Origin: an uncultured Desulfovibrio sp.
GTDB lineage: Bacteria; Desulfobacterota; Desulfovibrionia; Desulfovibrionales; Desulfovibrionaceae
Direction of reading: 5' to 3'
NCBI GenBank assembly: GCA_947177645.1
Contig: CAMWVJ010000018.1
Location: 1 to 10,144, forward strand
Length of the DNA: 10,144 bases
This document shows, one piece after another, positions 1 to 10,144 of this stretch; positions within the stretch are counted from its first letter, which is position 1; the number at the start of each line of letters is the position of its first letter. Under the pieces are notes generated by a model that saw only the letters and a list, made by a program, of their open reading frames with translations, was not told the DNA's origin and searched no databases. Both the position numbers and the translations under genes were made by a program.

Positions 1-52
1 AAATCACCCCAAGGACGGGAGCGGAAAGGATTCGCGGCGGCACACACCGCTC

Positions 53-73
53 GGGCTGCCCCCCCGGCAGCCC
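53..73 (+). other. perfect hairpin in upstream tail
   Basis: An 8-bp perfect inverted repeat (gggctgcc at 53-60 and ggcagccc at 66-73) closes a five-C loop. No U-tract follows directly. It lies just before the terminator at 86-121, so it may be part of the 3' end of an upstream transcript. I see no coding region or recognisable RNA gene in positions 1-85. Confidence 0.45.
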
Positions 74-85
74 CCACCACTTCAG

Positions 86-121
86 GAGCAGGCATGCGAG
101 GATCATGCCTGCTCTTTTTTT
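86..121 (+). terminator. intrinsic terminator of the upstream unit
   Basis: An 11-bp perfect stem (gagcaggcatg at 86-96, catgcctgctc at 104-114) with a 7-nt loop is followed at once by seven T residues (115-121). This is a textbook rho-independent terminator on the plus strand. It ends a transcript whose gene lies left of the window and insulates the hydrogenase unit from it. Confidence 0.9.
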
Positions 122-205
122 GAGCGCGGGGCAGCGTGCGCCCAGACCTGCTGGCCCTTCTTGCGCCTCCATTCCGGGCACTTACCGTCATTCCCCGGCG
201 AACCA

Positions 206-234
206 TTGAACTGTCGCCCTCAGTGTGGTATGGG
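206..234 (+). promoter_or_regulatory. possible sigma70-type promoter of the hydrogenase unit
   Basis: TTGAAC (206-211) and TATGGG (229-234) are separated by exactly 17 nt. They would start transcription near 241, leaving a leader of about 75 nt before the ATG at 316. The match is only 4/6 and 3/6, so this is a weak guess, favoured by spacing and by its place between terminator and gene. Confidence 0.25.
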
Positions 235-301
235 CATGCACATACTCTCACGGCTTTACCTCAAGCCAAGCGGGCGGCGCCGGCACTCCCCGCGCCGCTG
301 T

Positions 302-308
302 GGAGGAG
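302..308 (+). promoter_or_regulatory. ribosome binding site that fixes the start at 316
   Basis: GGAGGAG lies 7 nt before the ATG at 316. The reading frame is open upstream to a GTG at 136, but that extension has no ribosome site and no recognisable domain, so this site decides the start. Confidence 0.85.
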
Positions 309-315
309 ATCGCCC

Positions 316-2295
316 ATGCCGCGACTTGTCTATGGAGTCTGGGACGGCACTGTCTATGACAACCGCAACGGCGGCGACGCCACGCCCCCCGGACTGGACC
401 TTTCCGTCTTTGACAGCTTCAGCGAAGGCAATCCGGCCCGCTCCTTCCTCTCCGACAGGGGCTTTCTCGTCTTCGACCCCGAGCTTCCCCTGCTCTGGGC
501 CCTGTGGAAACATTTTGACAAGGTGGCCTCCGAATCCTGCGGCAAGTGCTCGCCCTGCCGCACCGGCGCGCCCCTCGTGCGCGATGTGCTGGCTGCGGCG
601 CGCGATGGCGCCGCCGTGGACTGGCAGGACCTGCGCGACATCGCCGTGCAGATGAGCGCCACCTCGCTCTGCGGCGTGGGCCAGACCGGCGCCCTGCCCC
701 TCCTGGCGGCGCTCACGCACTTCCCGGCGGAGCTCAAGCCCGGCGAGAGCGGCGACACGCGCGGCTTCTACAGCGCCATCACGAGCCCCTGTATCGAGGC
801 CTGCCCGGGCCTTGTCAACATCCCCCGCTATATCGACTACATCAAGGACGGCCACGACGACCTCGCCGCCAATACCGTCCTCCGCAGTTATCCGCTCGTG
901 GGGAGTTGCGGCCGCGTCTGCGTGCGCAGTTGCGAGCGCGCCTGCCGCCGCGCCAGGGTGGACGCGCCGGTCTCCATCCGCAATCTCAAGCGCTACGCGG
1001 CCGACAGGGCCATCGCCTCGGGCATGCTCAAGCCGCAGGACGCCGCCCCGGCCAAGAACAAGCGCGTGGCCGTGGTGGGCGCCGGGCCGGTGGGCATCTC
1101 CTGCGCGTATCACCTGCTCGAGCGCGGCTACCCGGTAGACATTTTCGAGGCCAAGCCCAAGGCCGGCGGCATGATCCGCTACGGCATCCCCATCTACCGC
1201 CTGCCCAAGACGACCCTCCAGGAAGAGACGGACATCGTGGCCGCCATGGGCGCGCGCTTCTTCTTCAACCAGAAGCTCGGCCGGGATTTTGACGTGGACG
1301 AGCTCTTCCGGCGCGGCTACGACGCGGTGTTCATCGGCTGCGGCTGCCCGAGCGGCGCCTATCTCGGCATGGAGGGCGAGGATACGTCGCTAGCCGGCTA
1401 CGAGAACGGCATCGCTTTTCTGGAGCGCGTGTACGAAGGCGTGGAGGCGGGCGAGCCGCCCGTGCTCGAGGGCGACGTGGTGGTGGTGGGCGGCGGCAAC
1501 GTGGCCATGGACTGCTGCCGGGCGGCCGCGCGCGTGGCCACCGGTGTGACCCATCTCATCTATCGCCGCACCGAGGCCGACGCCCCGGCCGACCCTGAAG
1601 AAATCCACGCCGCCAAGGAAGAAGGCGTCAAGTTCCACTTCCTCTGCGGGCAGGACGCTCTGATGGTGGAAAACGGCGAGATCACGGGCCTCAGGGTGGT
1701 CGACATGGAGCGCACGGAGCCCGACGCCAGCGGCCGGCGCGGTGTCCGACCCATCCCGGGCTCGGAGCATGTCATCCCCTGCCGGCACGTCATCGCGGCC
1801 ATCGGCCAGAAGACCGACGCCGCCATGCTGCGCGACGACGAAGGCATCGCGCGCGACCGCAAGAACTGCATCGTCATCAACGCCGCGCACGAGACGAGCC
1901 GCAAGGGCGTCTTCGCCGGCGGCGACTGCACCAGCGGCCCGCGCGCCTCGGGCCCCACCACCATGATCATGGGCATGGGCCACGCCTATTTTGCGGCGCG
2001 CTCCATCGACCAGTTCCTTTCCACGGACCAGGTGCCCTTTGATTCGCGCTGGCGCCTCAGCGAATGGATCGCCAAGGGACGCCTGCTTGACGACGCGGCG
2101 CCCGCGCCGGCCAAGCCCCGGCAGGAGCGCGTGGGCGTGCGCGAGATCTCTCCCGAAGAGCGGGATCACAATTTTGACGAAGTGGAACAGACCATGACCC
2201 GCGAGGAGGCCTGGTCCGAGGCCTCGCGCTGCATGCGCTGCTACCGCGTGCTTTCCGTCATCACCGAAAGCCCCATCCCCGGCAATCCCGCCTGA
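316..2295 (+). CDS. NuoF-type iron-sulfur tail fused to GltD/NfnB-like FAD, NAD(P)H oxidoreductase (659 aa)
   Basis: Probable diaphorase subunit moving electrons between NAD(P)H and the [FeFe] hydrogenase encoded next; cytoplasmic, with no signal peptide. Residues about 55-140 match the C-terminal domain of NuoF, which binds cluster N3: Cys75, Cys78 and Cys81 in CGKCSPCR, then Cys119 in SLCGVGQT. The FMN and NADH domains and the SLBB domain of NuoF are absent. Residues about 150-650 are GltD-like: a cysteine-rich N-terminal part (Cys159, 163, 198, 202, 206, 210), an FAD Rossmann motif VAVVGAGPVG (251-260), an NAD(P)H Rossmann motif VVVVGGGNVA (388-397) with YRR at 416-418, and the second FAD site GVFAGGDC (531-538). 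The protein ends with a CxxC (Cys639, Cys642). The YRR after the second Rossmann fold suggests NADPH, but this is inference. The hydrogenase ATG lies 29 nt downstream, so the two are surely co-transcribed. Domain calls are firm; substrate and direction are not. Confidence 0.9.
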   Translation: MPRLVYGVWDGTVYDNRNGGDATPPGLDLSVFDSFSEGNPARSFLSDRGFLVFDPELPLLWALWKHFDKVASESCGKCSPCRTGAPLVRDVLAAARDGAAVDWQDLRDIAVQMSATSLCGVGQTGALPLLAALTHFPAELKPGESGDTRGFYSAITSPCIEACPGLVNIPRYIDYIKDGHDDLAANTVLRSYPLVGSCGRVCVRSCERACRRARVDAPVSIRNLKRYAADRAIASGMLKPQDAAPAKNKRVAVVGAGPVGISCAYHLLERGYPVDIFEAKPKAGGMIRYGIPIYRLPKTTLQEETDIVAAMGARFFFNQKLGRDFDVDELFRRGYDAVFIGCGCPSGAYLGMEGEDTSLAGYENGIAFLERVYEGVEAGEPPVLEGDVVVVGGGNVAMDCCRAAARVATGVTHLIYRRTEADAPADPEEIHAAKEEGVKFHFLCGQDALMVENGEITGLRVVDMERTEPDASGRRGVRPIPGSEHVIPCRHVIAAIGQKTDAAMLRDDEGIARDRKNCIVINAAHETSRKGVFAGGDCTSGPRASGPTTMIMGMGHAYFAARSIDQFLSTDQVPFDSRWRLSEWIAKGRLLDDAAPAPAKPRQERVGVREISPEERDHNFDEVEQTMTREEAWSEASRCMRCYRVLSVITESPIPGNPA

Positions 2296-2313
2296 GCGCC
2301 GTGAGCCGCAGAA

Positions 2314-2319
2314 AGAGGA
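2314..2319 (+). promoter_or_regulatory. ribosome binding site that fixes the hydrogenase start at 2325
   Basis: AGAGGA lies 5 nt before the ATG at 2325. An in-frame GTG at 2301 would add eight residues but has no ribosome site at a good distance. The protein from 2325 begins MKAYLNGQEY, as expected for the [2Fe-2S] fold. Confidence 0.8.
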
Positions 2320-2324
2320 TACTC

Positions 2325-4124
2325 ATGAAAGCCTATCTCAATGGTCAGGAATATGCGTTCGAGGAAGGGGAAACCATCCTTCAGCTCGCGCGGCGCGCCG
2401 GTGTCTTTATCCCCACGCTCTGCCGCTTCGAGCCGCTTTCCCACAAGCCCGCCACCTGCCGCGTGTGCCTCGTGGAAGTGAGCGACGGCGCGGGCACGCG
2501 CATGGTGGCCTCGTGCGAGACGCCGCTTGCGGACGGCATGCGCATCGACACCCTCTCCCGCCATGTGCGCGACATGCAGCGCACCCAGGTGGAAATGATC
2601 TTCGCCGACCATGACCAGGAATGCGTCTCCTGCGCGCGCCATGGCGACTGCGAATTGCAGGACCTGGGCGAGGCCGTGGGCCTCACGCGCAACCGCTTCA
2701 CCCACCGCCTGCGCCCCACAGCGGCCGAGCGCCCGCTGGACGACAGCGCCGCCGGCATGACGCGCGACATGAGCAAGTGCATCCGCTGCCTGCGCTGCGT
2801 GGAGGTGTGCCGGCAGATCCAGGGCGTGGCCGCGCTCACCGTGGACGGTCAGGGCCTCGGCACCTGTATCGGCGTGGGCATGGCCGACGATCACAGCGCC
2901 TCGGCCTGTATCCAGTGCGGCCAGTGCACCCTTGTCTGCCCCACCGGGGCGCTCGCCGAGCGCGACCAGAACGACCTCGTGCTCGACATGCTGGCCGACC
3001 CTAAGATCACCACGGTCTTCAGCTTCGCGCCCTCCGTGCGCGTGCTGCTGGGCGAGGAATTCGGCTTCGCGCCCGGCGTCAACGTGGAGGGCAAGATCGT
3101 GGGCGCACTCCGGCGCATCGGCGCGGACGTGGTGCTGGACACGGACTTCGCCGCGGACGTGACCATCATGGAAGAAGGCACGGAGCTTCTGGGCCGGCTC
3201 AAGAAGGGCGCCAAAGGGCCCATGTTCACCTCCTGCTGTCCGGGCTGGATCAACTATGCGGAAAAGCACTGCCCGGGCGTTTTGCCGCACATCTCCTCCA
3301 CGCGCTCGCCGCAGGCCATCCTCGGGGCGCTGGCCAAGAGCTACCTGCCCGAGGCCATGGGGCTCGAGAAGGGTCGCCTGCGTACCGTCTCCATCATGCC
3401 CTGCGTCGCAAAGAAGGACGAGGCCGCACGGCCCGAGCTTGCCCGCGAGGACGTACCCGACACGGACGTGGTGCTCACGGTGCGCGAATTCGCGCGCCTG
3501 CTCAGGCGCATGGGCGTGGACCTCGCCGACGTGGAGCCCGAGCCCTTCGACAACCCCTTCATGAGCGCGTCCACGGGCGCGGCGGTGATCTTCGGCTCCA
3601 CCGGCGGCGTCATGGAGGCCGCCGTGCGCACCGTCTATGCGGTGGTCACGGGCAAGGAGCTGGAGCACATCGAGGTCACACCGCTGCGCGGCATGGACGG
3701 CGTGCGCGAGGCCGTCATCGACCTCGGCGAGGGCAATGGCAGCATCCGCGTCGCCATCTGCCACGGGCTGCGCAACGCGCGCGCCCTGGCCGAGCAGGCC
3801 ATGGCCGGGGAATCGCCCTATGACTTCATCGAGGTCATGGCCTGCCCCGGCGGCTGCGTGGACGGCGGTGGCACCTCGCGCGTCAAGGGCGACTACCACC
3901 CCCACGCGCGCACGCGCCAGCAGGGCCTCTACAGCCTCGACCGCGCCATGCCCCGCCGCCAGTCGCACAAAAACCCGCAAGTGAAGAAGCTCTATGAGGA
4001 CTTTCTGGGCGAGCCCAATTCGCACAAGGCCCACGAGCTGCTGCACACCGCCTACTCCGACCGCAGCGAAAGCCCGAGCGAGACCATCTTCGCCAACAAG
4101 CAGCGCCTGACGCTGACGGACTGA
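2325..4124 (+). CDS. hydA: cytoplasmic [FeFe] hydrogenase, NuoG-like N-terminus (HndD/CpI type, 599 aa)
   Basis: Catalyses reversible 2H+ + 2e- to H2. The order of clusters matches Clostridium pasteurianum CpI and Desulfovibrio HndD: a [2Fe-2S] domain (Cys33, 45, 48, 64), a His-Cys [4Fe-4S] site (His96, Cys100, 103, 109), and two ferredoxin-like [4Fe-4S] sites (Cys152, 155, 158, 162 and Cys195, 198, 201, 205). The H-cluster motifs are all intact: TSCCPGW (302-308; Cys304 the likely proton relay, Cys305 a ligand), MPCVAKKDE (358-366; Cys360) and EVMACPGGCVDGGG (503-516; Cys507, Cys511). The C-terminal stretch from about 530 is the small-subunit-like domain. There is no Tat or Sec signal, so it acts in the cytoplasm. 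The upstream NuoF-tail/GltD fusion is the likely electron partner through the [2Fe-2S] domain. Maturases (HydE, HydF, HydG) are not in the window. Whether it bifurcates electrons cannot be told from sequence alone. Confidence 0.95.
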   Translation: MKAYLNGQEYAFEEGETILQLARRAGVFIPTLCRFEPLSHKPATCRVCLVEVSDGAGTRMVASCETPLADGMRIDTLSRHVRDMQRTQVEMIFADHDQECVSCARHGDCELQDLGEAVGLTRNRFTHRLRPTAAERPLDDSAAGMTRDMSKCIRCLRCVEVCRQIQGVAALTVDGQGLGTCIGVGMADDHSASACIQCGQCTLVCPTGALAERDQNDLVLDMLADPKITTVFSFAPSVRVLLGEEFGFAPGVNVEGKIVGALRRIGADVVLDTDFAADVTIMEEGTELLGRLKKGAKGPMFTSCCPGWINYAEKHCPGVLPHISSTRSPQAILGALAKSYLPEAMGLEKGRLRTVSIMPCVAKKDEAARPELAREDVPDTDVVLTVREFARLLRRMGVDLADVEPEPFDNPFMSASTGAAVIFGSTGGVMEAAVRTVYAVVTGKELEHIEVTPLRGMDGVREAVIDLGEGNGSIRVAICHGLRNARALAEQAMAGESPYDFIEVMACPGGCVDGGGTSRVKGDYHPHARTRQQGLYSLDRAMPRRQSHKNPQVKKLYEDFLGEPNSHKAHELLHTAYSDRSESPSETIFANKQRLTLTD

Positions 4125-4207: not shown

Positions 4208-4540
4208 CTATTCGGCGAACATGAGTTGGAGCACAGAGAGGACTTCCCGGCGCGTCTCCTCCGGCAAGACCGCCATGCGCCTGGTGAGCCGGGCCTTGTC
4301 CAGCGCGCGGATCTGGTCAAGGGCGACTTGGCCCGGAATATCGCTTACAACGGTCTGCACGCGGAAGGGATAGGGCCGGATGGTGGACGTGAGCGGCGCC
4401 ACCAGCACCGTACCCAGATGCCGGTTGAGCTCGTCAGGGGAGATGATGAGCACGGGGCGGGTTTTCCTGATTTCATGGCCGATGGTGGGGTCAAGATTGG
4501 CCCACCACACCTCGAAGCGGCTCACGGTTTTTGGGGCCAT
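4208..4540 (-). CDS. mazF: MazF/PemK-family endoribonuclease toxin (110 aa)
   Basis: Family members cut mRNA at short sequence motifs and are held inactive by MazE. The whole length matches the fold: RFEVWWANLDPTIGHE at the N-terminus, then KTRPVLIIS (residues 26-34) with the Arg usual for catalysis, then VLVAPLTST (45-53) with the conserved Thr, then a DQIRALDK segment (75-82). The length is normal. The ATG at 4540 is chosen because GGAG lies 5 nt upstream; a GTG six bases earlier would sit right on that site. It overlaps the end of mazE by 19 nt, the usual sign of translational coupling in toxin-antitoxin pairs. The cleavage motif cannot be predicted from this sequence. Confidence 0.92.
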   Translation of the reverse strand: MAPKTVSRFEVWWANLDPTIGHEIRKTRPVLIISPDELNRHLGTVLVAPLTSTIRPYPFRVQTVVSDIPGQVALDQIRALDKARLTRRMAVLPEETRREVLSVLQLMFAE

Positions 4541-4797
4541 GTCCACTCCGCGGCGTCGAAGCCGGTATCCAGCTGGTCGAATTCCGCAAATTCCCGCGCA
4601 TCCGCGGCTCTTTCAGCGGCAGGGACGGCAAGCAGCGCCTCTTCCCACGCGCCGCGTCCCTGCTTCACCGGCGAGAGCAGGAGGCCCCCATCGGTGACAG
4701 TGAGGGACACCATATCACCGAACCCGCACTGGGCTATGAGCGCCTTGGGCAAACGGATGCCGCGCGAATTGCCGATGGGCACAAGGGGAATATCCAT
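4522..4797 (-). CDS. mazE: MazE-like antitoxin, AbrB/SpoVT DNA-binding domain (91 aa)
   Basis: Antitoxin that should bind and block the MazF encoded downstream and repress its own promoter. Residues 1-43 form the swapped-hairpin AbrB-type DNA-binding fold, with IPLVPIGNSRGIRLPKALI near the N-terminus, nearly the family consensus. The rest (about 44-91) is acidic and rich in Ala, Glu and Asp (EFAEFDQLDTGFDAAEW), as expected of the disordered toxin-binding tail. The start ATG at 4797 has GAGG 6 nt upstream. A good promoter of its own (4816-4844) shows that the pair need not depend on the nrd operon ahead of it. Confidence 0.9.
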   Translation of the reverse strand: MDIPLVPIGNSRGIRLPKALIAQCGFGDMVSLTVTDGGLLLSPVKQGRGAWEEALLAVPAAERAADAREFAEFDQLDTGFDAAEWTWPQKP

Positions 4798-4892: not shown

Positions 4893-4917
4893 AAAAAAAG
4901 GTGGGGACTATCCCGCC
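4893..4917 (-). terminator. probable terminator of the nrd operon
   Basis: On the minus strand a small hairpin (GGGA, loop TAG, TCCC, with an outer GG/CC pair across an internal loop) runs directly into seven T residues (4899-4893). The nrdG stop codon TAG forms the loop. The T-tract is strong but the stem is short and imperfect, so termination may be partial. Confidence 0.5.
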
Positions 4918-5480
4918 AGAGAAAGCAGCCGCGCGCGCAGCTCTCTGTCCAGGAGGCGCTGGTTGGAGCTGCCGCGCCAGGCGATGTCCAGGCTGCGCAG
5001 GGCCTCGATATAGGGGCCGTCGATGAGTAGATCCGTGGCGTCGAGGAGCGCGGCCACGGCCGCGTCCATCGGGGCGCGGCCCGCCAGCTCTTCAAAAATA
5101 TAGCCGGTATAGGTGATGACCGTGCCGCCGAGGGCATGGATGCGGCCGGCGAGCACGGCGAGGGGCGACGCCTGGAGAAAGGGCTCGCCGCCGGAAAAGG
5201 TCACGCCCGAAAGCAGCGGATTTTCCCGGTAGCGGGCCACCAGTTCGTCGAGCGAATGGAAGCTCCCGCCGTTCACGGGATGCGTCTCGGGATTGTGGCA
5301 GCCCGGGCAGCCGTGCGGGCAGCCCTGGGTGAAGATGGTGAGCCGGAGGCCCGGGCCGTCCACGATGGAGTCTTCCACGATGCCGGCCAGCCGCAGCCGG
5401 GGGGCCACATCCCCCCGGGTCACAGGGGCGCGAAAGCCTGCGAGTCGAAGTCCGGGGGCGGGGCGCGCCGCTTCAGGCAT
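4908..5480 (-). CDS. nrdG: class III ribonucleotide reductase activating enzyme, radical SAM (190 aa)
   Basis: Uses S-adenosylmethionine and a [4Fe-4S] cluster to make the glycyl radical of class III ribonucleotide reductase. The radical-SAM motif CPHGCPGC is at residues 54-61 (Cys54, Cys58, Cys61), preceded by the NrdG signature IVEDSIVDGPGLRL and followed by GVTFSGGEP (92-100), the SAM-binding GGEP. LLIDGPYIEALRSLDIAWRG (151-170) is also typical. The chosen ATG overlaps the stop of the upstream small gene in ATGCCTGA, so translation is likely coupled; no good ribosome site is seen. This start gives about 30 residues before the family fold, with LRLAG occurring twice. A GTG at 5408 would give a 166-residue protein closer to the usual length. 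Function is secure; the exact start is not. Confidence 0.93.
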   Translation of the reverse strand: MPEAARPAPGLRLAGFRAPVTRGDVAPRLRLAGIVEDSIVDGPGLRLTIFTQGCPHGCPGCHNPETHPVNGGSFHSLDELVARYRENPLLSGVTFSGGEPFLQASPLAVLAGRIHALGGTVITYTGYIFEELAGRAPMDAAVAALLDATDLLIDGPYIEALRSLDIAWRGSSNQRLLDRELRARLLSLAG

Positions 5481-5667
5481 GGCGCACGCGGTCGTGCTCT
5501 TCGGCGCGCTTGGCGTTGTTGAAGCGGTCGAGCGTGCCCACGAGATAGCCGGTGATACGCCGGATGCGCTCAAAGCCCACGCCCTCGCCCACCAGCGCGT
5601 GCGCCGCAGGCGCCGCGGCCGCTTCCTCGTTCTGCGCTTCCTCGAACAGGCGCGATTTCATCAGCAT
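5473..5667 (-). CDS. stand-alone glycyl-radical domain of class III ribonucleotide reductase (64 aa)
   Basis: Short protein carrying what is normally the extreme C-terminus of NrdD. Residues about 32-63 contain RIRRITGYLVGTLDRFN (34-50), followed by an NAKRAEEHDRVRH tail. This fits the glycyl-radical segment of NrdD proteins (compare RRTCGYIG in the E. coli enzyme), with Gly40 as the predicted radical site. Residues 1-30 are rich in Glu and Ala and look like a linker. The ATG at 5667 is preceded by GAGGAGG with 8 nt spacing. An in-frame TTG at 5694 gives a longer form but lacks such a site. It lies 61 nt after nrdD, and its stop overlaps the nrdG start by 8 nt. NrdD itself lacks this segment, so the simplest reading is a two-piece enzyme. 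The other reading is a spare-part subunit, as YfiD/GrcA is for pyruvate formate-lyase. Confidence 0.88.
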   Translation of the reverse strand: MLMKSRLFEEAQNEEAAAAPAAHALVGEGVGFERIRRITGYLVGTLDRFNNAKRAEEHDRVRHA

Positions 5668-5675
5668 GGCTTCTT

Positions 5676-5682
5676 CCTCCTC
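5676..5682 (-). promoter_or_regulatory. strong ribosome binding site of the glycyl-radical gene
   Basis: GAGGAGG on the minus strand lies 8 nt before the ATG at 5667. It shows that the small open frame is translated on its own and is not a decayed, frameshifted tail of nrdD. Confidence 0.8.
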
Positions 5683-5692
5683 GGGAGTGTTC

Positions 5693-5723
5693 AAAAAATC
5701 CCTGCCGCCCTGCCACGGGCGGC
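5693..5723 (-). terminator. terminator-like hairpin between nrdD and the glycyl-radical gene
   Basis: On the minus strand gccgccc (5723-5717) and gggcggc (5710-5704) form a perfect 7-bp GC stem with a 6-nt loop. AGGGA and then six T residues (5698-5693) follow. The 5-nt gap between stem and T-tract makes this a poor or partial terminator; it may act as an attenuator or as a barrier that protects the nrdD mRNA 3' end. Confidence 0.5.
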
Positions 5724-5728
5724 TTCTC

Positions 5729-7978
5729 TCAGTTCCAGCGCGGCATATTGGGGTACAGCTTGCGCAGCTCGCGCAGCTTTTCCTCGCTCACGCCCTCGCC
5801 CTCGCGGCGCCCGCAGCGCGGGCAGACATCGTTGATGACGCCCGTGTAGCCGCACACCGGGTCGCGGTCGAGCGGGTGGTTCACCGAGCCGTAGCCCACG
5901 CCCGCATCGTGCATGCAGCGGATGATGCGCTCGAAGGCCGCGGTGTTTTTCGCCGTGTCGCCATCAAGCTCCACATAGGTGATGTGCCCGGCATTGGTGA
6001 GCGCGTGGTACGGCGCCTCGATGGCGATCTTCCTGTGCGCCCGGATGGGGAAATACACGGGCACATGGAAGGAATTGGTGTAGTAGCCGCGGTCGGTGAT
6101 GCCCGGAAGCTCGCCGTAGCGCGCCTTGTCGAGCGCGGTGAAGCGGCCGCTCAGGCCCTCGGCGGGCGTGGCGATGAGCGAGAAATTGAGCTTCGTCTTT
6201 TCCGCCTCGGCATCGGCGCGGCGGCGCATGTGGCCGATGATCCTGAGGCCCAGCGCCTGCGCGGCCTCGCTCTGGCCGTGATGCTCGCCGATGAGGGCCA
6301 CCAGCGTCTCGGCGAGGCCGATGAAGCCCACGGTGAGCGTGCCGTGCTTCAGGACCTCGCCGATGCGGTCCTCCACGTCCAGCTTGCCGGAATCGATCCA
6401 GATGCCGTTGCCCATGAGGAAGGGATAGTTGCGCACCTTCTTGGCGCTCTGGATCTTGAGGCGGTGCATGAGCTGGCGGAACACGAGGTCGATGGCGTCG
6501 TCGAGGAGGCCGAAAAAGGCGTCCACATCGCCCTTCGCCTCGATGCCCAGGCGCGGCAAATTGATGGTGGTGAAGCTCAGGTTGCCGCGGCCGCAGGTCA
6601 CTTGCCGTTCCGGGTCATGCACATTGCCGAGCACGCGCGTGCGGCAGCCCATGTAGGCCACCTCGCTGTTGTAGTCGCCCGGCCGGTAATACTGGAGATT
6701 GAAGGGCGCGTCGAGAAAGCTGAAATTGGGGAAGAGCCGTTTCGCCGAGGTCTCCATGGCGAGCTGGAAGAGGTCGTGGTTGGGGTCGCCGGGATCATAG
6801 TTGACGCCTTCCTTCACCTTGAAGATCTGCACCGGGAAGATGGAGGTCTCGCCATTGCCGAGGCCGGCCTGCGTGGCGAGCAAGAGGTTCTTCATGACCA
6901 TGCGGCCCTCGGGCGACGTGTCCGTGCCGTAATTGATGGAGCTGAAGGGCACCTGCGCGCCGGCGCGGGAATTCATGGTGTTGAGGTTGTGGATGAGCGC
7001 TTCCATGGACTGGTAGACGCGCGTCTCCGTCCGCGTGAGCGCTTCCTCCACGGCATAGGCGTGGGCGCGGGCCACGAGCTCCCGCTGCTCTGGCGCGGCA
7101 GCGGCCACAAGGGCCTCGCCCAGGGCCTCGGCCTCGCCCATGCGCGGGTCCAGCCCTTCGAGGAGGCGGTCGGCGAGGACGTGCACGGCCGCGGCTTCCA
7201 TGCCGCCGGCAAGGCGCAGGCAGGCCTCAAGGGCGCGGCGGTATTCCTTGCGCCAGGTCTTGGCCACGCCCTCGGCCATGGCCCAGTCAAAATTGGGCAC
7301 GCTCTGGCCGCCGTGCATCTCGTTCTGGTTGGCCTGGATGGCGATGCAGGCCAGCGCGGCGTAGCTCTCGATGGAATTGGGCTCGCGCAAAAAGCCGTGT
7401 CCCGTGGAAAAGCCGTTGCGGAACAGCGGGATGAGGTCGATCTGGCAGCACGTTTCCGTGAGCATGTAAAAATCTTTGTCGTGGATGTGGATATCGCCGT
7501 TGATGTGCGCCGCCGAGGCGTCCTTGGGCAGGATATAGCTGTCCACGAAATACTTGGAGCCTTCGGAGCCGTACTTGAGCATGGTGCCCATGGCGGTGTC
7601 GCCGTCGATATTGGCGTTTTCGCGCTTGATGTCCTCGGCCACGGCCGGGGAATAGGTCAGGCGCTGGTAGATCTCCATGAGGGCCGATTCCGCGTTGCGG
7701 ATCTTGGCGTGCTCCGCCCGGTAGAGGATATAGGCCTTGGCCGTGCGGGCGTAGTCGAAGCGGATGAGGCTTTCCTCCACCACGTCCTGGATCTCTTCCA
7801 CATGGCGCAGGTTGCGCTCGTCGAGGGTGCGGCAGACCTTTTCCGTGACGAAGAGCAGATCCGTCGGGGACATGTCCTCCCCTTCCACGGCCTGGTTGGC
7901 CCTGGTGATGGCGCTCAGGATCTTTTTCGAGTCAAAGGGCACGGCGGCGCCGTCCCGTTTGATGATCGTCGCGGGCAT
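5729..7978 (-). CDS. nrdD: class III anaerobic ribonucleoside-triphosphate reductase, catalytic chain lacking the glycyl domain (749 aa)
   Basis: Reduces ribonucleoside triphosphates to deoxy forms without oxygen. Residues 1-95 are an ATP-cone allosteric domain (begins MPATIIKRDGAAVPFDSKKI). The ten-stranded barrel follows, with INGDIHIHDKDF (159-170), HGGQSVPNFDWAMA (222-235), SINYGTDTSPEGR (347-359), and AYMGCRTRV (441-449), where Cys445 is the predicted thiyl-radical residue. GNLSFTTINLPRLG (465-478) and GFIGLAETL (551-559) are also family motifs. Near the C-terminus is a zinc-ribbon-like segment with Cys709, Cys719 and Cys722; the position expected for a fourth Cys is Asp706. The chain then ends in a charged tail (KLYPNMPRWN) with no RxxGY glycyl-radical motif; that motif is in the next gene. 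The ATG at 7978 has GGGAG 6 nt upstream. A cobalamin riboswitch lies ahead of it. Confidence 0.95.
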   Translation of the reverse strand: MPATIIKRDGAAVPFDSKKILSAITRANQAVEGEDMSPTDLLFVTEKVCRTLDERNLRHVEEIQDVVEESLIRFDYARTAKAYILYRAEHAKIRNAESALMEIYQRLTYSPAVAEDIKRENANIDGDTAMGTMLKYGSEGSKYFVDSYILPKDASAAHINGDIHIHDKDFYMLTETCCQIDLIPLFRNGFSTGHGFLREPNSIESYAALACIAIQANQNEMHGGQSVPNFDWAMAEGVAKTWRKEYRRALEACLRLAGGMEAAAVHVLADRLLEGLDPRMGEAEALGEALVAAAAPEQRELVARAHAYAVEEALTRTETRVYQSMEALIHNLNTMNSRAGAQVPFSSINYGTDTSPEGRMVMKNLLLATQAGLGNGETSIFPVQIFKVKEGVNYDPGDPNHDLFQLAMETSAKRLFPNFSFLDAPFNLQYYRPGDYNSEVAYMGCRTRVLGNVHDPERQVTCGRGNLSFTTINLPRLGIEAKGDVDAFFGLLDDAIDLVFRQLMHRLKIQSAKKVRNYPFLMGNGIWIDSGKLDVEDRIGEVLKHGTLTVGFIGLAETLVALIGEHHGQSEAAQALGLRIIGHMRRRADAEAEKTKLNFSLIATPAEGLSGRFTALDKARYGELPGITDRGYYTNSFHVPVYFPIRAHRKIAIEAPYHALTNAGHITYVELDGDTAKNTAAFERIIRCMHDAGVGYGSVNHPLDRDPVCGYTGVINDVCPRCGRREGEGVSEEKLRELRKLYPNMPRWN

Positions 7979-8595: not shown

Positions 8596-9105
8596 TTAGT
8601 CTCCGGCGGGGCGCGCTTTTTCGCCGTCGGCCGGCTCCTGCGGGGCCGCGTCCATGGGCTGCGGCTCCAGCGAGTGCATGTTGACCTGCGAGGGGCCGTC
8701 AAAGCCCTGTGGCACCTGGATGCCGATGCGCGCCGGGTGGTTGATGACGATGGGCCCCGTGAGGTTGAGGGCGGCCTTTTCCGGCTCGCCCGGCGGGATG
8801 GACACCGTGACGAGGATGGCCGCGTCCTCGGTGTTCTGGATTTGGAGCAGGGCCTGCTCCGCATCGCCGAGCATCACCGGGTAGGATGACAAAAAGCTGT
8901 ACGGGTCGGCCACGAGCAGGCCCACCTGCGGGTTGGTCACGCTCTGGAGGATGAGCAGGGGCGCGTCGGGCCTGAGCTGGAGGAGGATGAAGTCGTGCTC
9001 CTCCTCAAAACCGGCCAGCCCGCGGGGAAAACGAATGATCTTGTCGGGATCGATGACACGCCGCCCGAGGCGGGTTTCGATCTCTAGCTCTTTTTCGCTT
9101 GCCAT
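8596..9105 (-). CDS. fliW: flagellar assembly factor FliW (169 aa)
   Basis: FliW binds CsrA and frees flagellin mRNA for translation; free flagellin in turn takes FliW away, so the pair senses flagellin use. The family pattern is clear: [20 protein letters not shown] (12-31), then [14 protein letters not shown] (32-45), then a beta-rich core with [20 protein letters not shown]. Residues about 150-169 form a tail rich in Pro, Ala and acidic residues that goes beyond the usual fold. The ATG at 9105 lies inside the end of csrA (22-nt overlap), so translation is probably coupled; the ribosome site is weak. Its place directly after csrA is the classic pairing. Confidence 0.95.
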
Positions 9106-9320
9106 AGTTCAGCAGCCACCATCAAGTCTTCGTTCTTGGTCGCCAGGGCGCGGCGATTTTCCTCAATGACCCGTTTATAGACCTCTTCGCGGTACACCGT
9201 GGTGTCGCTGGGCACGTCCAGGCCGAGCTTGACCTGCCGCCCCTGGATACCGAGCACGGTGATGCGGATGTTTTCGCCCAAATACAGGCTTTCGCCGGGG
9301 CGTCGCGTCAGAATGAGCAT
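9084..9320 (-). CDS. csrA: carbon storage regulator CsrA (78 aa)
   Basis: Small dimeric RNA-binding protein that blocks translation by covering GGA motifs near ribosome sites. The sequence is canonical from [20 protein letters not shown] through [15 protein letters not shown] to VYREEVY (42-48). Leu4 and Arg44, the residues most important for RNA contact, are both present. At 78 residues it is longer than the 61-residue E. coli protein; the added C-terminal helix is the usual form in bacteria where FliW controls CsrA. It starts 30 nt after the flgL stop and overlaps fliW by 22 nt. Flagellin mRNA is the expected main target, inferred from context. Confidence 0.97.
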
Positions 9321-9350
9321 GGCATGGCGTCCGATGCGCCAGGGGCGCGC

Positions 9351-10144
9351 TTACACATAGTTGGCGAGGCTCAGCTTCATGATCATGGACGAGGATTGCA
9401 GGACCGTCTGGTACGTGAGCTGCTGGCGCGTCAGCTTGGTCAGCAGTTCCGTCAGGTCGATGTCTTCAGTATAGCTCAAACGCTCCTGCTGGTCCAGCTT
9501 CTGGAACGAGAGCACGTCCGAGGCCGTCTGGATGCGGTTTTCCTTGCCGCCGATGGACGTGGCCGCCGAGAGCACCTGCTTTTCCGCCACCTTGAGGGCC
9601 GCGAGGGTCTTCTGCGCGCCCTCCTGGTTGTTGCCCTCGAGATAGCCGATGAAGGCGCCCACCACCTCGAAGAGGTTGTTGTCGCCGTCAAGGGCGGGCA
9701 TGCCCTCGTAGTAGCCGCCGAAGATGTCCTTGCCCACGGCGTTCACCGAGAGGTAGGTGTCCTTCATGATCTCGAACTTGAGGTCCGCGCGCGAGGGATG
9801 CACCAAGACCTGGCTGCCGGCCGTGACCGTCTTGTCGCCCACGCCGCTGGCGTCAAGATCCACATAGCCGCCGGGCACGGGCAGGCGCAGCTTGTCGCCG
9901 CCGGTGGTCTGGCCCTTGAGCGTCACCCAGTTGGAGCCGCCGTCCGTGCTGTAGGACCAGGTGAATTCGTTGCCCGCCGTGGAGAGGTCGGCGTCCGTAT
10001 CCATGCGCACGAGGAGATTCTTGCCGAAATCGCCCTTGGCCTCGACCTCGAGCCCCTGGGGCGCGCCCATCTGGGTGATGTCGAGCGGCGGGTCCTTGTC
10101 ATCGCCCTGATAGATGGCGGCCGGGCGGATATAGAGCATGGTGC
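9351..10144 (-). CDS. flgL: flagellar hook-associated protein FlgL (HAP3), 5' end outside the window
   Basis: Partial gene: the frame runs off the right edge, and the ATG at 10139 is internal or unproven as a start, since the frame stays open before it. FlgL joins the hook to the flagellin filament. The last about 110 residues have the coiled, flagellin-like D0/D1 character, ending with LTKLTRQQLTYQTVL and then SLANYV, the typical hook-associated C-terminus. The part before is a beta-rich variable domain (WSYSTDGGSNWVTL and following), as in surface-exposed insertions of FlgL in Desulfovibrio. The position just ahead of csrA and fliW supports flgL over flagellin itself. The N-terminal domain and the presumed flgK neighbour lie outside the window. 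Confidence 0.85.
   Translation of the reverse strand, partial: TMLYIRPAAIYQGDDKDPPLDITQMGAPQGLEVEAKGDFGKNLLVRMDTDADLSTAGNEFTWSYSTDGGSNWVTLKGQTTGGDKLRLPVPGGYVDLDASGVGDKTVTAGSQVLVHPSRADLKFEIMKDTYLSVNAVGKDIFGGYYEGMPALDGDNNLFEVVGAFIGYLEGNNQEGAQKTLAALKVAEKQVLSAATSIGGKENRIQTASDVLSFQKLDQQERLSYTEDIDLTELLTKLTRQQLTYQTVLQSSSMIMKLSLANYV

Follow-up and report, generated by a model that had tools for sequence, protein, structure and literature searches.

A probable two-chain class III ribonucleotide reductase in an uncultured gut Desulfovibrio, with the glycyl-radical motif on a separate small protein

Organization of the nrd locus

We analysed a 10,144-nt stretch of DNA (the window) from contig CAMWVJ010000018.1 of an uncultured gut Desulfovibrio sp. 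(GCA_947177645.1), a fragmented assembly (352 contigs, 64% complete) resembling a metagenome-assembled genome (MAG). On its minus strand the window carries nrdD, encoding the catalytic chain of a class III ribonucleotide reductase (RNR), a small gene encoding a glycyl-radical protein, here called the "G chain", and nrdG (Table 1). The glycyl-radical motif is absent from the 749-aa chain and present on the 64-aa chain, which defines the variant. "G chain" and "cartridge" (see below) are names coined in this analysis.

Table 1. Features of the nrd locus in the window
Feature	Position	Strand	Length or basis
nrdD, catalytic chain of class III RNR	5729..7978	-	749 aa
Cys445 codon, presumed thiyl-radical Cys in GCRTRV	6644..6646	-	invariant in alignment A2
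Zinc-site region, Cys709/719/722	5813..5854	-	zinc-like by sequence
NrdD tail RREGEGVSEEKLRELRKLYPNMPRWN where the glycyl loop is expected	5732..5809	-	profile comparison with shuffles
Shine-Dalgarno AGGAGG ahead of the small gene's ATG	5676..5681	-	sequence
Small glycyl-radical protein gene (G chain)	5473..5667	-	64 aa / 64 codons
Gly40 codon, presumed radical glycine of RRITGY	5548..5550	-	aligned with Gly of QRITGYLVG, P. copri NrdD
nrdG, radical-SAM activase	4908..5480	-	TIGR02491, start taken at ATG 5480

Residues 4-91 of NrdD form an ATP-cone (PF03477, 70 bits), and PF13597 was matched over profile positions 1-531 of 562 only (611 bits), with the barrel present. Cys445 in GCRTRV, presumed from the NrdD family to be the thiyl-radical residue, is unchanged across all 59 rows of alignment A2. 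After the zinc-site region there is no glycyl-radical motif; the chain ends in ...CPRCGRREGEGVSEEKLRELRKLYPNMPRWN and a stop. A preliminary description of this DNA had assigned to NrdD an ATP cone, Cys445 and a zinc-like site, and had noted the lack of an RxxGY motif. Pfam matches and the sequence bore this out. The site is aptly called zinc-like: Cys709, Cys719 and Cys722 are present, the same number as in most fused relatives and one fewer than a four-Cys site would have.

The G chain matched PF13597 at positions 533-562 only, complementing the match of NrdD, and TIGR02487, NF005497 and NF011292 only over their last ~30 positions. NrdD-type models were the only ones matched at meaningful scores, and NrdD was the only match among solved structures; no model or structure of pyruvate formate-lyase (PFL) or GrcA matched in the profile and structure comparisons. 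The small gene lies in a different frame from nrdD (offset 256 nt). The preliminary description also had it carrying just RRITGYLVG with Gly40, preceded by its own ribosome site and running into nrdG, and so we found it: AGGAGG precedes its ATG, and the overlap with nrdG is 8 nt if nrdG begins at ATG 5480, a start that is a choice, the open frame extending further upstream. nrdG matched TIGR02491 at E 3e-35 and 121.4 bits, just below the cut-off of 126.1. The observation of a split nrdD with a separate motif gene was confirmed as correct.

A Shine-Dalgarno-like motif precedes the small gene in 14 of 14 cases (the window and 13 congeners). Mean pN and pS of its open reading frame (ORF) were 0.083 and 0.596 (91 pairs among 14 genes, 38 codons); clearly, the small gene is under purifying selection. 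Because the ORF is constrained and its place is kept in many genomes, it is more than a chance frame.

Conservation of the split in Desulfovibrio

A search of related genomes for the order nrdD / small gene / nrdG, as had been proposed earlier, showed that the split arrangement recurs: an NrdD of this type was found in 20 of 24 congeners, and the small gene in the same 20. Both are absent from four congeners, three of which carry only a distant NrdD; no NrdD match was found in G013 (74% complete). Sixteen genomes from other genera of the order all lacked the small gene. Of 297 genomes sampled from the window's phylum, eight of the window's genus, its own genome included, have the small gene, and one further weak match contained stops (9/297 in total).

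By coordinates, nrdD and the small gene are linked in 16 of the 20 congeners, two single-contig genomes among them; the exceptions are G003, G011, G015 and G023. In G011 and G023, nrdG directly follows nrdD, and an intact small gene lies on another contig. Since the two genes are unlinked in some congeners, the small gene can be encoded apart from nrdD. G003 has a decayed copy next to nrdD and two intact copies elsewhere. Reading by eye, we also saw a broken-looking nrdG after the decayed gene (L085, 7950-8300). A second, full-length NrdD, earlier considered as something that could overturn the split-enzyme reading, was found neither in the window's genome (64% complete) nor in the single-contig congeners G005 and G020.

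Distribution of the split in other bacteria

One genome from each of 84,980 species was scanned with patterns from an alignment of the Desulfovibrio small proteins, and at least 592 stretches encode a relative of the small protein. We analysed the best 80 of these, chosen by similarity to the small protein, so that the counts are not prevalences: in 66 the small gene follows an nrdD that lacks the motif, 10 have a fused NrdD, and 4 have the small gene with no nrdD in the stretch. By NCBI phylum, the 66 split loci belong to Bacillota (53), Thermodesulfobacteriota (5), Pseudomonadota (2), Fibrobacterota (2) and Mycoplasmatota (2), with 2 unassigned. Downstream nrdG genes were detected in 53 of the 67 split rows. 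The gaps between nrdD and the small gene differ widely, and all three relative frames occur (28, 24 and 15 of the 67 rows). The split is neither an error nor a one-off.

Of 398 genomes sampled across the phylum of Massiliimalia, 153 matched the motif, and among the matches listed at least 27 genomes have it in an open frame of <200 codons. A plasmid search returned 29 records; in 23 the matching stretch carries an annotation as the anaerobic reductase. Two small glycyl genes lie within one nrdD-nrdG operon of a Clostridia MAG (L256, 2941-3556).

There is also a second form of the small gene, with a conserved extra N-terminal region of ~55 residues. nrdD lies within ~3 kb in only 4 of 10 such loci (L270-L279): the longer gene stands between nrdD and nrdG in L270 and L277-L279, and adjoins nrdG with no nrdD in the ~3 kb examined in L271-L276, whose nrdD may be elsewhere in the genome. 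Proteins like the longer form are named by their sources from Selenomonas, Anaerovibrio and Pectinatus frisingensis. A similar extra region is seen in viral loci L150, L156-L158, L163, L166, L171, L173, L175, L176 and L178-L180; among the longer viral small proteins scanned, Pfam and PHROGs gave no convincing other family for it.

Other ribonucleotide reductases in split genomes

Fifty of the 66 split genomes (the other 16 include those of Desulfovibrio) were searched for every NrdD and for every class I/II RNR (PF02867); the PF02867 search was positive in 11 of 14 control genomes. The split NrdD was the only RNR detected in 34 of the 50, two of them named strains, Massiliimalia timonensis Marseille-P3753 (G343) and Succinivibrio dextrinosolvens DSM 3072 (G377). 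PF02867 was present in four split genomes (G338, G346, G370 and G374), and an additional complete, distant or partial NrdD in 14 (G336, G338, G340, G342, G348, G357, G359, G360, G367, G370, G372, G379, G381 and G382). Where the split NrdD is the only RNR seen, its genomic setting implies that a two-chain enzyme would have to work.

Fit of the two chains

Against the solved structure of P. copri NrdD, the window's NrdD aligned with residues 7-249 and 282-706, and the profile of the small protein with residues 708-738, which hold the QRITGYLVG loop. The small protein fills the missing C-terminus, as an alignment to full-length NrdD had been expected to reveal, and the chains meet within two residues (706/708). 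The break falls between the zinc region, which is kept on NrdD, and the radical loop.

For AlphaFold2 we used the in-frame pair of congener G005 (L081), read through its stop with the natural intergenic sequence as linker, and 25 such pairs. The block just ahead of the loop (781-790) had a pLDDT of 79. Structural alignment with T4 NrdD paired model residues 124..803 with 26..587 (1h78), 125..804 with 27..589 (1h7a) and 124..800 with 27..583 (1h79). By these range ends, Gly796 of the model would lie at Gly580 of T4, +/- one residue, with the proviso that range ends do not prove single residue pairs. The model is compatible with docking and is no proof of it. An earlier AlphaFold2 model from 59 rows was uninformative on docking and was discarded: in its input MAFFT had set the fused glycyl domains on the NrdD tail.

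According to the excerpts of PMC11226230 consulted (all papers cited here are drawn on in excerpt), the glycyl domain of P. copri NrdD is mobile: with ATP it is ordered in one of the monomers, and with dATP it is disordered. In view of this mobility, a detachable tip fits the known behaviour of the domain.

Origin of the split

NrdD tails start like the pre-loop sequence of fused enzymes (GEGVPxERI), then diverge, and they are alike between species. Tails of the Butyricicoccus type were aligned by MAFFT across the full length of the lost domain. The two chains also overlap in sequence, with RREGEGVxxEKL in NrdD and VGEGVxFERIRR in the small chain. We compared 86 tails, each with 200 shuffles, to a profile of the fused glycyl domain; L259 (no recognised zinc motif) was left out, and 10 of 26 fused rows (nine distant ones and L088) lay outside the profile. 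The score exceeded all 200 shuffles for 21 of the 86 tails, part of the signal being zinc-proximal linker. The score of the window's tail was reached by 3 of 200 shuffles, and six tails (L047, L206, L225, L230, L250 and L252) were reached by more than half of theirs. Because both chains hold an overlapping GEGV-type stretch, the sequences fit an origin in which a duplicate tip would have taken over while the built-in one decayed, rather than one gene having been cut in two.

A tree was inferred for 113 NrdDs with these columns excluded. It requires no fewer than 10 changes between the split and fused states, and well-supported branches force 5 of these; this FastTree tree carried a long-branch warning and undersamples fused sequences, and 10 changes is a rough guide. 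The Desulfovibrio NrdDs of this type are nested within a clade that includes Bacillota sequences, a placement that suggests horizontal gain.

Viral and additional copies of the small gene

A viral scan gave 128 loci. Among the best 80 of these, the motif lies in a short ORF in 72 and in a fused NrdD in 8; two of the 72 (L140 and L177) retain zinc-site Cys and resemble parts of an NrdD gene that has been interrupted. In 31 of the 40 viral records that are 30 kb or longer, the small gene was found with no NrdD, though these records may be fragments. Other viral records have both genes of the split, and in L135 the small gene comes first. In Eggerthella phage EL753P1, the small glycyl gene after an annotated nrdD has a break in its frame within RRITGY (L261, 5911-6120).

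More than one match occurs in 12 of 24 Desulfovibrio relatives. Around 18 loci with extra copies, 50 of 104 neighbours were scanned, and terminase, RusA, primase, baseplate and endolysin families were among the matches; some small genes sit in prophage-like regions. In two Desulfovibrio genomes, extra copies lack the RITGY motif or have an insertion inside it (L073, 6015-6188; L071, 5905-6141). The single-contig genome G020 encodes identical small glycyl proteins at two places (L067 and L068), as expected of a mobile element. In some genomes of the phylum of Massiliimalia, such as G760 (L265 and L266), a fused NrdD coexists with a separate small gene, the arrangement expected of a spare part.

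Discussion

Very probably, the window encodes an obligate two-chain class III RNR in which the small protein is a separate glycyl-radical subunit. NrdD would bring the ATP-cone, the barrel, the thiyl-radical Cys445 and the zinc region. NrdG would presumably take hydrogen from Gly40 of the small chain, either alone or already docked, and the RRITGYLVG loop would enter the NrdD barrel where a normal NrdD places its own C-terminal loop. The radical would then move on to Cys445, with reduction proceeding as in other NrdDs. Our results support the split-enzyme reading of the preliminary description: the split exists and is conserved, and the two chains can have their genes at separate places.

Several points weigh against this reading, among them the limits given above for the range ends, the tail scores and the tree, the decayed copy in G003 and the uninformative first model. 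Most of the modelled radical loop (794-808) had a pLDDT <50, and AlphaFold2 was presumably trained on NrdD structures. Another RNR was found in 16 of the 50 split genomes, and most of the genomes with a sole RNR are MAGs, which can miss genes. One class I/II-type RNR (PF02867) was found in each of the six congeners searched, and the window's own assembly, 64% complete, lay outside that search. In Desulfovibrio, then, the split enzyme need not be the sole RNR, and the case is weaker there.

The congeners' class I/II RNRs are also what would favour the small protein being a mere spare part like GrcA/YfiD (PMC8683613), the shortened NrdD being degenerate or dormant and Desulfovibrio relying on another RNR; genomes such as G760 are to be counted on the same side. 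We regard this as improbable, since NrdD keeps a full-length, conserved barrel, purifying selection acts on the small gene, and no other RNR was seen in 34 of 50 split genomes. A still smaller probability attaches to the small protein serving another glycyl radical enzyme. PFL is indeed served by GrcA/YfiD (PMC8683613), and the loop chemistry is common to glycyl radical enzymes; however, the small protein matches NrdD-type models and NrdD structures only, and its gene is flanked by nrdD and nrdG and occurs together with this NrdD.

That the frames are joined in translation into a normal NrdD, by frameshift or stop read-through, can be given almost no credence. In G344, G351, G373 and G384 a single stop separates the genes, which share a frame, but the variation of the intergenic frames (28/24/15) argues against recoding, as do the widely varying gap lengths, the three in-frame stops between the genes in S. 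dextrinosolvens, the ribosome site found before all 14 small genes examined, and the separation of the genes in G011 and G023. The preliminary description, too, had considered a frameshift unlikely. An assembly or sequencing error, or a recent nonsense or frameshift mutation, is equally close to negligible. The fragmented, MAG-like nature of the window's assembly could favour it, but the linked arrangement occurs in 16 of 20 congeners, two of them single-contig, and in 66 of the best 80 of at least 592 loci. Moreover, the chains overlap in sequence and the tails are alike between species, which one point error cannot yield. Sequencing error, named earlier as a possible refutation, is excluded by this recurrence.

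The two-chain NrdD shares with the class III enzymes of T4, P. copri and S. thermophilus the ATP-cone, the barrel, the GCRTRV Cys, the zinc region, an RRITGY-type loop and a neighbouring nrdG. It differs in having the loop on a second polypeptide, whereas the NrdDs described in the excerpted papers bear it at their own C-terminus (PMC11226230, PMC9669993). With GrcA/YfiD (and Y06I) of PFL it shares a stand-alone glycyl-radical domain, which in the known system works in trans; YfiD has 127 aa, and its N-terminal half is disordered (PMC8683613). In contrast, the window's small protein matches NrdD and not PFL, and its NrdD has no loop of its own, so that the small chain would be obligate and not a repair part. 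The split class II RNR NrdJa/NrdJb is likewise an RNR in two chains (PMC9669993, PMC4520616), but its second chain has IscU-like and zinc domains and no radical (PMC9669993, as excerpted). Phages also have nrdD in pieces, split by introns or homing endonucleases (PMC3653736). Those are interrupted genes, whereas the break seen here lies at a functional domain edge and recurs in cellular genomes, and its second piece stands alone.

Searches of open-licence PMC papers, outside which most subscription papers lie, turned up no split NrdD of this kind. In database records some of the tiny proteins are named after the reductase and others are hypothetical. The pieces are visible in databases, and as far as we found the two-chain arrangement is apparently undescribed in the open-licence literature. 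In the excerpts examined, class III RNRs have the radical glycine on the catalytic chain; the two-chain form is recurrent here and often the only RNR detected. Such an enzyme would store the radical on one protein and use it on another as its normal state, beyond repair. It bears directly on a published question (PMC8683613, as excerpted): do glycyl radical enzymes besides PFL have spare parts that bear a radical? It would also be a natural system for separate study of tip binding, activation and O2 damage, and gives a testable function to tiny bacterial and phage genes now unannotated, called "hypothetical" or named after the whole reductase.

The viral copies of the tip suggest that the radical part could be swapped like a cartridge. 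Tentatively, and with somewhat more doubt than confidence, we propose that the NrdD tip is a mobile, exchangeable cartridge of phages and anaerobes. A phage tip might dock into host NrdD, rescuing or taking over dNTP synthesis, and access to such tips might have let host NrdDs lose the built-in tip several times, leaving them dependent on one in trans. If so, tip binding would be a new control point, as dATP disorders the same domain in P. copri (PMC11226230, as excerpted).

Neighbouring genes

Upstream of nrdD lie fliW and csrA in overlapping order (8596-10139, minus strand); for the ORF at 9351-10139, Pfam gave nothing at E 0.001. Genes identified by Pfam matches as those of a MazE-like antitoxin (4525-4797) and a PemK/MazF-like toxin (4211-4546) lie just downstream of nrdG, both on the minus strand. 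Facing the nrd operon on the plus strand (136-4124) are genes for an NADH/pyridine-nucleotide oxidoreductase and an [FeFe]-hydrogenase large subunit.

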